Source of the DNA: Cyanobacteria bacterium REEB459
GTDB taxonomy: Bacteria; Cyanobacteriota; Cyanobacteriia; Phormidesmidales; Phormidesmidaceae
DNA length: 64,000 nucleotides
Direction: 5' to 3'
Assembly (NCBI GenBank): GCA_018970085.1
Contig: JAGWXD010000003.1
Span: forward strand, 62,001 to 126,000
Position numbers and translations under genes: made by a program. Positions within the stretch are counted from its first letter, which is position 1, and each line of letters opens with the position of its first letter. The notes below the pieces were generated by a model. That model saw only the letters and a program-made list of their open reading frames with translations, was not told where the DNA came from and did not search any database. This document shows positions 9,102 through 13,080 of the stretch, in pieces.

Positions 9102-9368
9102 AGGAGTCCCACAAAACCGACATGACACCTAGAGTAGATCTTTTCTGAGCCCCCCGATCAGCTTTCTCATGACATCCCAACATTTCCACAGCCCGCCCCT
9201 TCAATACAGGCCGGGCTGCCCCCAGCCCCCAGCAGAGGCACCGGAGTTGCAACCCCAGTCCTAAGGTCTCCTCCCCAGGCCAGACTACCCCAGCCTTACC
9301 CCCCAATTCCTGGTAATCTAGGGCCAAAACCCCGAAGCTATTGCCAAATTTCTAGCAAAGGGCCTGCC
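9102..9368. other. Non-coding stretch upstream of aspC
   Basis: No convincing ORF or RNA gene. A weak inverted repeat (AGCCCG near 9190 with CGGGCT near 9213) is the only structure I notice. The promoter of the minus-strand aspC gene should lie at the left end. Confidence 0.5.
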
Positions 9369-9370
9369 AA

Positions 9371-9562
9371 AGAGGGGCATCACCATTGATCCTATAAATC
9401 AAAAATTCTCTTAAGGTAGATTGTTCCTGAACGCTCACTGTGTTTGTTCATGAAACCTCTTGAAAAAGAGGGGCATGACCATACACCCCATAATTGGAAA
9501 TTCCTTTTAGGGTAGATCATGTCCATTCATCTGGTAAGTGCGTTCATGACATCTTGCAATTC
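9371..9562. repeat. Imperfect tandem duplication, two 96-bp units
   Basis: Unit 1 (9371-9466) and unit 2 (9467-9562) align without gaps at a constant 96-bp offset. Identity is highest in AGAGGGGCAT at the unit start, around GGTAGAT near the middle, and in GTTCATGA near the end (9446 and 9542). Both units have an AT-rich central block (CCTATAAAT in unit 1, CCATAAT in unit 2). It lies 380-575 bp upstream of the patX-like start and may duplicate a promoter or operator. Confidence 0.75.
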
Positions 9563-9816
9563 TGTGATGCCCTGGCAAGGGACCGGCTATTTGCAAAATA
9601 CCCCCAAAAATATCCTCAAAAGTTGGCTGCCATTTTCCCTTGCGGAGGGCGACAACTATGGGGCAAGCCAATCGTCACAAAAATTAACCTTTCCCCTGGG
9701 CTTTTTGGGTAAGAGCATCACCGTTGTAGGGGTCATCTCCAGGTCCTATCTGGAGCCGCCTGAAACCAGTAAACCCCTGAGAAATTGCCACTTTCTTCCA
9801 TCGATCAGTGGAACTA

Positions 9817-9833
9817 CCCTGGCTCAGCCAGGG
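9817..9833. promoter_or_regulatory. Perfect inverted repeat upstream of patX-like gene
   Basis: CCCTGGC-TCA-GCCAGGG, 7-bp arms with a 3-base centre, flanked by TGGA (9808-9811 region) and TCCA so the symmetry continues imperfectly. It lies about 113 bp before the patX-like start codon. It could be an operator or a hairpin in the leader; there is no T-run, so it is not an obvious terminator. Confidence 0.5.
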
Positions 9834-9858
9834 CTCCATCACCCGGGAATTGAGAAAA

Positions 9859-9874
9859 TCCGTAGAACTACGGA
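9859..9874. promoter_or_regulatory. Perfect 16-bp palindrome-like inverted repeat upstream of patX-like gene
   Basis: TCCGTAG-AA-CTACGGA: 7-bp arms around a 2-base centre, 71 bp before the patX-like ATG. Its compact symmetry suits a dimeric DNA-binding protein. It is not an NtcA site (GTA-N8-TAC), because only four bases separate GTA and TAC. I cannot name the regulator. Confidence 0.5.
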
Positions 9875-9945
9875 CAAATATCTTCCTGATTTCGATCGAT
9901 AACCCCTGTATTTAGGACTAGATGCGCTGAGAAATTTAAAGACCT

Positions 9946-10194
9946 ATGCACCTTTATTCCATTTTCTCCAAGAACACTGTTTTGGCTTCCTTAACTGGCA
10001 TTAGCCTGCTAATGGCAGCAGCTGCGCCGCTGGCGGGGCAAATTTCCGTCTTAAGAACCGGGTCGGTAATGCCAGCCCTGGGCTCTACAGACCAAGACCG
10101 GGGTAGCGGTCGCCTGGCGGCTAACCCCTCTGACCTCCATGCCGCTACTAGCTGGCGGGGTAGTGGCCGCATTAACGACGACACTACCAGCTAA
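9946..10194 (+). CDS. patX: PatX-like secreted peptide precursor with two RGSGR motifs
   Basis: An 82-residue protein with a signal peptide: a Lys at position 9, hydrophobic core about 11-27, and a possible cleavage site after PLAG (about 31). The rest is polar and carries two complete RGSGR pentapeptides, at residues 52-56 (in QDRGSGRLA) and 71-75 (in SWRGSGRIN), the second seven residues from the C-terminus. RGSGR is the HetR-binding inhibitor sequence of PatS, HetN and PatX; PatX is a short exported precursor often near hetR in filamentous cyanobacteria, as here (567 bp upstream, same strand). Two copies in one precursor are unusual as far as I know. No clear Shine-Dalgarno precedes ATG 9946. 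The processed product is inferred. Confidence 0.85.
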   Translation: MHLYSIFSKNTVLASLTGISLLMAAAAPLAGQISVLRTGSVMPALGSTDQDRGSGRLAANPSDLHAATSWRGSGRINDDTTS

Positions 10195-10275
10195 ATCAGA
10201 GACTGCTGCGGTTGATTGCATATCGGGTTTTGCTTCAGTTTAGCGACTGCTAGGCACAATCTCAGCGGATGTAGT

Positions 10276-10309
10276 CAACCTTAGAGAGGGGTGTTTCTCT
10301 GAGGGTTGG
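10276..10309 (+). other. Imperfect stem-loop in patX-hetR intergenic region
   Basis: CAACC-TTAGAGAG pairs with CTCTGAGGGTTG around a GGGTGTTT-like loop, with one bulge or mismatch. It is 80-115 bp downstream of the patX-like stop codon and could shape its 3' end. No T-run follows. Confidence 0.45.
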
Positions 10310-10421
10310 CTATGTTGCTCCCGAGAGCCTTCGTAGCATCGCCTTAAGCCCCAATCCCTGGCAACCAGTTGATTAGTTTCAGGCTAGGCCATAGGTTGTC
10401 ACTGATCAACTGATGCGTGGG

Positions 10422-10482
10422 GTCGGCAGCCGACAAAAAAGTTGAGATAAGTTATCACACCTATCTGAGTTTTGCTGTCGGC
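10422..10482 (+). promoter_or_regulatory. GTCGGC palindrome overlapping a large imperfect hairpin, upstream of hetR
   Basis: GTCGGC-A-GCCGAC (10422-10434) is a perfect 13-bp palindrome. Its right half with the next A-run (GCCGACA at 10429-10435, then AAAAA) can instead pair with TTTTGCTGTCGGC ending at 10482, enclosing an inner GAGATA/TATCT stem. The palindrome and the long hairpin use the same bases, so they are alternatives. It lies about 280-340 bp before the hetR start. Confidence 0.45.
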
Positions 10483-10752
10483 GACTAAGGTTATGGATTT
10501 CCCCTGGTCTGTTCAGTCCAAGCCTTTATCTATCTAGGTAGGCAAGGAGGCTGGGCAGACCACTTTTTCCACTAGTCCAAAATCCCTATCCCAGCATGAG
10601 TGGGGGTTTACCTGGTCGGTGGGAGGTATCCACCTGAATTTTTCTTTAACCCGGTAACTCCCTAAGGGATAGGCCTTAGCTGCTGGCCATGGTAGCTAGA
10701 GGTGCTGTTCTCGGTGGAGCTTAATTTTTCTATTCCTGATTCGTCTATCTGA

Positions 10753-11700
<948 letters not shown>

Positions 11701-11769
11701 GCGATCTATGGCACTGCCCGGGGGCTAAGCTCAGACCCAAGCAAGCCAAGGGGCGGCTCGTTTAAACCA

Positions 11770-13080
11770 CTACTGAGACCGGGGACGACCAAAGCTGGGT
11801 AGCTGCACTGCGGCTAGAGAACTGATTTTTTTGGGCGATCGCAGGGGATAAACTACCGGGGAAGGGGACACTCCGGGCTCAGTAGTCAGGATCGCAGGTG
11901 GCTGTTGTAGATAGCTAGAATAAGCGGGAGCTAAATTCTCGGGCGCTGGTAAAGTAGGTGCTTCGGCCACCAGGACAGGCTGGGCACCGATCTCGGCGGG
12001 CAGATCTAAGGGAGTCAGGGGAACACCCCAGGGCGATGGCTCGGTAAACCCTGGTTGTTTAGAGCTGGTCTTGAGGGTTTGCCAGGGGTCTGGGGCCGTT
12101 TCCAGCTGAGGGGTAGCCGCCGTCACTGGTGGCAGATCTGGGGTAGGTTCTGGCAGACTAGCGGCAGCATCACCCAAAGCAATAGTAACAGTAGAGGAGT
12201 CCTGGGCCAGGGCTATATCCAACTGAGGCGAGGAGGGAGGCTGCTCTGGGCTCTGTGCCGGGGGTTCTGGCTGCCTGAGGCTGCGCAACAAACTCTGGAG
12301 ATGGGCAGGTCGGCCTTCTTGAGCCGACCAGGGCTTAATTTCACCCGAACGGGGCATAAAACCCGATGGGGCAGGGCTGCTAACCAGGGGAGAAGCTGGG
12401 GGATGATCGGTATTTAGACACTTTTCCAGGGCCGCTTTAAATTGCAGCGTATAGTGTTGCTGACGGTGAAGACGAGACCTGAGGTCGCGGCAACTTTCTT
12501 CTGCCTGCATCAGGGCAGCACTCTTTTCGCTAAAACGCTGCTGCAGCAAGGTAAACTCCCGCTCCAGTTGAGCAACTCGCTGCTGCTCGGCAGCCAGTTC
12601 TGCTTGCAAAGTCTGATTATGAATGGCGGTGCGACGCAGCCCATCGTTAGCCAGGTCCAGCTCTTGCAGTAACTGGGCGGTGGCGGCTGACGCAGGGGGC
12701 GTCGGGGGAGTTGGGCTCTGGCTGCGCTCTAGTTCCGATTGCAGAGCTGTTTGAGAGCGCTCTAGATACTCTTCTAGTTCACCTACCCTGGCTAGCAGGG
12801 CGTCATTACACTGATTTAAGTCCTGAATCAGGGTAATCAGGTCCTGGGGGTTACCTGCAAAATCGATGCCGGGGTCTGAGGCACTGCCAGTAGTTATCCA
12901 GTCGGGGGCAATATTAACCGGCGGGGGATCGGCTTCTATCATCAATTGATCGGGGAAATTAATAGTCTCCCAGGGCTCCGCTGCGGCCGTAGCCCCATCA
13001 CCAGATGAATACCCACTAGAGGAAGCAATAGGCTGATCAGGCGGGTTAGGAGTGGGCTGGGCGCTATTAGTTTGGCTCAT
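11770..13080 (-). CDS. Unrecognised coiled-coil protein convergent with hetR
   Basis: A 436-residue soluble protein I cannot name. An acidic, low-complexity N-terminus (about 1-75) is followed by LITLIQDLNQCNDALLARVG and a long coiled coil (about 80-225, rich in Leu, Gln, Glu), with one proline-rich break (PTPPTPPAS). The C-terminal 200 residues are Pro/Ala/Ser-rich, with a short basic end. No signal peptide or membrane segment. It faces hetR tail to tail across 69 bp. Cyanobacterial pattern-formation genes of the PatU type also encode coiled-coil proteins, but I have no residue-level support for that link. Confidence 0.7.
   Translation of the reverse strand: MSQTNSAQPTPNPPDQPIASSSGYSSGDGATAAAEPWETINFPDQLMIEADPPPVNIAPDWITTGSASDPGIDFAGNPQDLITLIQDLNQCNDALLARVGELEEYLERSQTALQSELERSQSPTPPTPPASAATAQLLQELDLANDGLRRTAIHNQTLQAELAAEQQRVAQLEREFTLLQQRFSEKSAALMQAEESCRDLRSRLHRQQHYTLQFKAALEKCLNTDHPPASPLVSSPAPSGFMPRSGEIKPWSAQEGRPAHLQSLLRSLRQPEPPAQSPEQPPSSPQLDIALAQDSSTVTIALGDAAASLPEPTPDLPPVTAATPQLETAPDPWQTLKTSSKQPGFTEPSPWGVPLTPLDLPAEIGAQPVLVAEAPTLPAPENLAPAYSSYLQQPPAILTTEPGVSPSPVVYPLRSPKKISSLAAVQLPSFGRPRSQ

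Follow-up and report, generated by a model that had tools for sequence, protein, structure and literature searches.

A two-copy PatX precursor upstream of hetR in a Nodosilinea-like cyanobacterium, and the multi-copy PatX arrays of its family

The window, the 64,000-nt stretch of the Cyanobacteria bacterium REEB459 genome analyzed here, encodes a small protein that, on the features tested, qualifies as a true PatX and carries two copies of the HetR-binding motif RGSGR. A two-copy PatX is ordinary for this lineage; the interesting part is the family-wide occurrence of RGSGR arrays whose copies are apparently under selection. We read the protein as a multi-copy, prohormone-like PatX precursor of a Nodosilinea-like cyanobacterium, from which several HetR-binding peptides would be released, and put the probability of this reading at roughly 0.62.

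The patX-hetR locus of the window

The patX ORF (9946..10194, + strand, TAA stop codon included) specifies an 82-residue precursor with recognizable relatives. Translation confirms the two complete RGSGR motifs of the original prediction, the first at residues 52-56 (10099..10113, + strand), preceded by D and followed by L, and the second at residues 71-75 (10156..10170, + strand), between W and I. The motifs start 19 residues apart, and their ends are separated from the C terminus by 26 and 7 residues, respectively. Residues 1-35 (9946..10050, + strand) form a putative Sec signal with a hydrophobic stretch at approximately residues 10-30; 15-residue hydropathy means of up to 1.86 agree with the secreted-type N terminus that had been proposed, export itself remaining putative. 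The ORF thus combines what is expected of PatX: RG(S/T)GR in a small protein, here twice, a hydrophobic N terminus judged from hydropathy, and co-occurrence with hetR, which begins 567 nt downstream. PatS, by comparison, is a very short peptide with RGSGR at its C terminus, a description that the 82-residue protein does not fit. The N terminus, the nearby hetR, and a TCCTGA element 62 nt upstream together bear out the assignment as PatX-like.

The two linkers of the window protein have no visible kinship with each other, and only three of the five motif codons are common to both copies (CGG GGT AGC GGT CGC versus CGG GGT AGT GGC CGC), in line with the earlier view that this is not a very recent duplication. 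No Pfam or NCBIfam family was matched by the precursor up to an E value of 1, and two longer RGSGR arrays gave only subthreshold Pfam matches. The genome holds one other match to the precursor (G000:C81, L002; E = 2.7e-4), which was rejected as a chance match because it contains an internal stop and runs antisense to a gene that, from a reading of its ORF, is menD-like. A degenerate DNA pattern for RGSGR applied to the whole genome was uninformative (113 forward and 105 reverse matches; the reversed control gave 170 and 177). The window ORF is more than a chance occurrence, because the ORF type, the N terminus, the promoter element, and the position ahead of hetR recur across the family.

The TCCTGA element, which is DIF1-like and conserved in relatives, occupies 9884..9889 (+ strand). 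Upstream regions were compared for 100 of the 102 patX genes in our survey, namely those having at least 160 nt of upstream sequence and a methionine before the motif. In 99 of these 100, TCCTGA precedes the first methionine by no more than 80 nt, mostly by 58-65 nt; in the few genes with an odd distance, the first methionine is probably not the true start. It is present in 47 of 47 genus representatives, versus a mean of 0.9 of 47 in shuffled sequences. In the 2018 study of PatX by Elhai and Khudyakov, DIF1 reportedly lies within 69 nt upstream of patX. The published DIF1 word is TCCGGA (PMC7377430), and no exact TCCGGA occurs within 110 nt upstream of any of the 100 genes; TCCTGA would then be the form that DIF1 takes in these groups. 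No HetR box (GGGN5CCC) was found at 9223-12018, the window as a whole containing 65 against 61 expected, and we claim no HetR site. A 53-nt direct repeat (9369-9421 and 9465-9517; 77% identical, 96 nt apart) is also located upstream of patX.

The presumed target of the peptides, hetR (10762..11700, + strand), was identified by PF03574 (236 bits), PF18460 (115 bits), and NF009718 (478 bits, slightly below the cut-off of 489). Its product was aligned to the solved HetR structure 3qod, from which the residue numbering was derived and then checked against the residues named in PMC4649674. In the window HetR, the positions equivalent to R223, E253, E254, D256, D270, and D278 are kept, and each of these residues is described as lying at the bound peptide or as assayed for binding it (PMC4649674). 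By HetR, the nearest named relatives are Nodosilinea, Leptolyngbya, and Phormidium. The window genome is small (3.24 Mb, in 102 contigs) and has a second, diverged hetR-like gene on another contig (G000:C23:73536-74414, L004; 46% identical), whose product has V at the place of E254 in an alignment made by eye. The 3.2 kb around this second gene contain no RG[ST]GR ORF of fewer than 260 residues. A similar second hetR match is seen in many genomes of the window's family.

Copy number beside hetR and in arrays elsewhere

We surveyed 136 hetR places, 56 of them in the window's family (f1) and 80 elsewhere. The f1 places represent 54 of 63 genomes, the window included, with two places in each of two genomes; of the 80 places outside f1, 74 were hand-picked among the matches listed and 6 came from another search. 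An ORF was scored when it contained RG[ST]GR, had at least 40 residues, and lay on the same strand as hetR in the region scanned (up to 2.2 kb upstream of hetR, ~1.5 kb at some loci, and less at contig ends). The patX-hetR gene order was found at 102 of the 136 places.

In f1, a patX ORF is present at 52 of 56 places, with one copy of the motif in 4, two in 5, three in 27, four in 11, five in 3, and nine in 2. Named genomes, apart from these counts, follow suit; Nodosilinea nodulosa PCC 7104 (L011) and Leptolyngbya PCC 6406 (L031), for example, have three copies. A contig end truncates one array (L040), whose three copies are therefore a lower bound and whose remainder is probably L203. Of the four f1 places without a patX ORF, two hold a second hetR (L080 and L081), one is at a contig start (L064), and one is a short stretch (L092). 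Four of the five patX found in genus g10 of f1 have one copy; therefore, several copies are not essential.

Outside f1, a patX ORF was found at 50 of 80 places, 49 of them single-copy and one eight-copy (L166); adding two genomes from the array search described below (L182 and L183; outside the 74 hand-picked places, with arrays next to hetR or in the same genus) brings the multi-copy precursors to 3 of 52. The 30 places lacking an RG[ST]GR ORF beside hetR include all those of families f31 (14 of 14), f33 (4 of 4), and f21 (4 of 4), and also L113, where a 39-residue, single-motif ORF falls below the length cut. The expectation of one copy per precursor was thus wrong for f1, where 48 of 52 have two to nine. 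Whether multi-copy PatX is common, a point on which the original prediction had staked itself, depends on the scope: it is common within f1 but not class-wide (1 of 50 beside hetR outside f1, or 3 of 52). The eight-copy PatX at L166 (G219) belongs to family f15 and mixes Y- and H-headed motifs; the other 20 patX beside hetR in f15 are single-copy in the survey.

Used as the query against 388 genomes, a nine-copy array matched 27 at E ≤ 0.01, RGSGR being absent from several of them. This search is insensitive, in that only three of the listed genomes of the window's genus came up, although nearly all genomes on that list have three copies, and absence elsewhere is not to be inferred from it. 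It returned arrays of three (L182) and five (L183) copies in genus g52 of f15, two further arrays in f1 (five copies in L178 and six in L179), and one of eleven copies in G371 of family f44 (L180/L205). Searched against f44, the eleven-copy precursor matched 6 of 14 genomes, of which five have RGSGR arrays, with 17 (G413, L206), 11 (G371), 3, 3, and 3 copies (L208, L209, and L210); the sixth, G406, has no RGSGR array in the fetched locus. The f44 array precursors look exported and, wherever hetR was also located, lie apart from it. A HetR_C match exceeds the cut-off in 13 of the 14 f44 genomes, the exception being G371, where HetR_C matches reached at most 13.1 bits and a HetR search up to E = 10 came back empty. 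G371 was rejected as evidence of a HetR-less group with arrays, being a single outlier in its family, and may reflect an assembly gap. Judged from these sequences, arrays appear to have arisen, or grown, in two genera of f15 and in f44 as well as in f1.

Apparent selection on the copies, and the residues flanking them

The 49 distinct multi-copy precursors contain 176 motifs, intact by the definition of the count, of which 14 are RGTGR. Beyond residue 25, these precursors contain no other five-residue word that is one change away from the motif. Codons were compared by pairwise counting in 20 of the 21 distinct three-copy genes of the window's genus (L040 was left out). For motifs 1, 2, and 3, pS is 0.41, 0.39, and 0.55, and pN is 0, 0, and 0.015, the last value arising from shifts between AGA and CGN arginine codons. 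The two linkers have pN of 0.17 and 0.37 (computed from the equal-length pairs, 139 and 137 of 190), and the 30 codons ahead of the first motif have a pN of 0.45. Because motif residues are constant while synonymous codons vary, each copy, and not one alone, seems to be held by selection on its residues.

The motif order D-F-Y (the residues heading the three copies) occurs in 19 of 25 distinct multi-copy precursors of genus g1 and in 2 of 2 of g4. A tree built from 36 HetR proteins places the window inside g1, joined first to the three-copy L062 and L063 (support 87/81) and then to the two-copy L047 (support 82/85). The place of the window is unsure because its HetR has the longest end branch (0.41, versus a median of 0.036 over the 36 rows), and a sister relationship of the window and L047 is not rejected (p-AU 0.158). 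Copy number would have changed twice on the HetR tree, or once if the two are sisters. Since relatives in the genus mostly carry three copies, the two-copy state of the window is probably derived, one copy having been lost.

The residues flanking the motifs are also patterned. Ahead of the first motif (n = 49) stand D in 29 precursors, H in 12, N in 3, E in 2, Y in 2, and F in 1; ahead of the last stand Y in 38, W in 6, H in 3, and F in 2. The first residue is non-aromatic and the last aromatic in 45 of 49, the order is reversed in 2, and the remaining 2 have H twice or F throughout (the latter cut by a contig end). With one precursor per genus, the pattern holds in 9 of 12, is reversed in 2, and is neither in 1. 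The window conforms to it, with D...L at the first motif and W...I at the last. I, L, or V follows 161 of the 176 motifs, and successive motifs are spaced 10-35 residues apart (127 spacings). In the 20 three-copy genes, the codon ahead of motif 2 has a pN of 0.038 and that ahead of motif 3 a pN of 0; the D ahead of the first motif is fixed by the choice of genes in this comparison (the one of 21 left out being the contig-cut L040). Eight precursors of genera g3, g5, and g11 alternate H and Y (HYHY).

The structural work on HetR bears on these flanks. E254 and D256 are reported to hold the amino group of the first residue of the peptide, whose side chain has no effect on affinity; high affinity is linked to the hexapeptide having a free amino end, and longer N termini are expected to clash (PMC4649674). 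The flank pattern, if functional, is therefore more likely to concern cutting or transport than affinity for HetR. One rival account holds that the arrays supply two kinds of peptide, D/H/E-headed from the front and Y/W/F-headed from the end, which would differ in processing, transport between cells, or target, and not in affinity for HetR. We regard this as a tentative and rather unlikely account. The 45 of 49 pattern, the near constancy of the residues ahead of motifs 2 and 3, and the H/Y alternation of some lineages speak for it, but the reversed order also occurs (2 of 12 genera), as do precursors with H twice or F throughout; common descent may account for much of the pattern; and the first residue is neutral for affinity. 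The earlier suggestion of two peptides with different flanks gains weight from the pattern and loses some to that neutrality; the precursor may supply a double dose or two such peptides. A broader proposal, that PatX repeatedly evolved into a multi-copy prohormone of 2-17 units, co-releasing D/H-headed and aromatic-headed HetR ligands that travel or are processed differently, we consider unlikely. If it were true, a single gene would determine how much of an inhibitory morphogen is supplied and how far it reaches in filaments without heterocysts.

Proposed processing and comparison with known systems

For the preferred reading, a multi-copy precursor of HetR-binding peptides, we infer the following course. 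The precursor would be exported through its hydrophobic N terminus, and cutting would free each RGSGR block as a short peptide, roughly DRGSGR from the first and WRGSGR from the second. These would bind the hood domain of the HetR encoded next door and release HetR from DNA, and with several copies each round of translation would yield more inhibitor molecules, much as with multi-copy peptide hormone precursors. In Nostoc, a single-copy PatX is reported to undergo export and cleavage by PatP, with cut sites taken from an E. coli reporter (PMC12756182), and HRGTGR reportedly inhibits HetR (PMC12756182, PMC7476756); by analogy, a two-copy precursor should yield two inhibitor peptides.

Several observations weigh against a HetR-inhibitor array: the single copies of g10, decayed copies in some precursors, the probable loss in the window, and results from Leptolyngbya BL0902. 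In BL0902, which has three hetR-like ORFs, deletion transcriptomes led to the description of PatX effects as "basically independent of HetR" (PMC11298460). A genome of the window's genus, G039, has a three-copy patX (L063) and three hetR-like matches and is probably that of BL0902. PatX in this clade might then act mainly on a target other than HetR, with the arrays serving that role. The eleven-copy precursor of G371, where no HetR match was found, would fit such a role, but 13 of 14 genomes in its family have HetR_C, patX stays beside hetR in f1, and the window HetR keeps its binding residues; we judge this account quite improbable. That one copy is a functionless relic kept by chance is very unlikely: decay does occur, as RASGR twice in L185, RGGGR in L094, RGSDR in L149, and terminal motif remnants read in L056 and L057, but no one-substitution variant stands beside the 176 motifs of the 49 precursors, and within the genus the motif residues are invariant against varied synonymous sites. 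The bivalent ligand of the original prediction, an uncut or partly cut precursor bridging the two clefts of a HetR dimer, is barely credible, since, although two motifs are present and two PatS6 peptides are reported per hood dimer (PMC4649674), spacings of 10-35 residues and copy numbers of 2-17 argue that no fixed geometry is kept, and N-terminal extension is said to lower affinity (PMC4649674).

The PatX/HetR pair is reported to be older than PatS, HetN, and heterocysts (PMC12756182), and its role outside heterocyst formers has been called a mystery (PMC11298460). The portions available to us of the literature on PatX and RGSGR, a coverage that stops short of the 2018 PatX survey, contain no mention of several RGSGR copies per precursor; such silence is no evidence that arrays are unpublished, and they may already have been described in that survey. 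The patP-hetR-patX patterns are reported to be limited to a few orders, with one Leptolyngbya scored as hetR-positive and patX-negative (PMC12756182); such a score could arise if the search model had been fitted to one-copy precursors. With the inhibitor encoded as two to nine apparently selected copies, f1 offers a natural dosage series for the inhibitor need of a filament. Its arrays are also suited to asking whether flank residues sort the peptides by processing or by spread.

Yeast alpha-factor and animal neuropeptides are made from exported precursors that hold several near-identical signal units with spacers; the resemblance of the window PatX to such multi-copy hormone precursors would be one of analogy only, without homology. 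With the PatX of Nostoc PCC 7120 (HRGTGR), the window protein shares a small precursor, a hydrophobic N terminus, RG(S/T)GR, a putative DIF1-type element, and co-occurrence with hetR; the element reads TCCTGA in the window versus the published TCCGGA. In the 49 single-copy PatX outside f1, the motif is mostly followed by R (23 of 49) or by a stop (11 of 49) and is H-headed in 41 of 49, whereas the window protein has two motifs, headed by D and W and followed by L and I. In Leptolyngbya BL0902, probably of the same genus, patX (GFS31_32390) is likewise immediately upstream of hetR (PMC11298460), and the patX of G039, probably this strain, has three motifs versus two in the window. PatS and HetN are alike in carrying RGSGR and inhibiting HetR (PMC7761841) but differ in that their precursors are reported as likely cleaved in the cytoplasm (PMC12756182).
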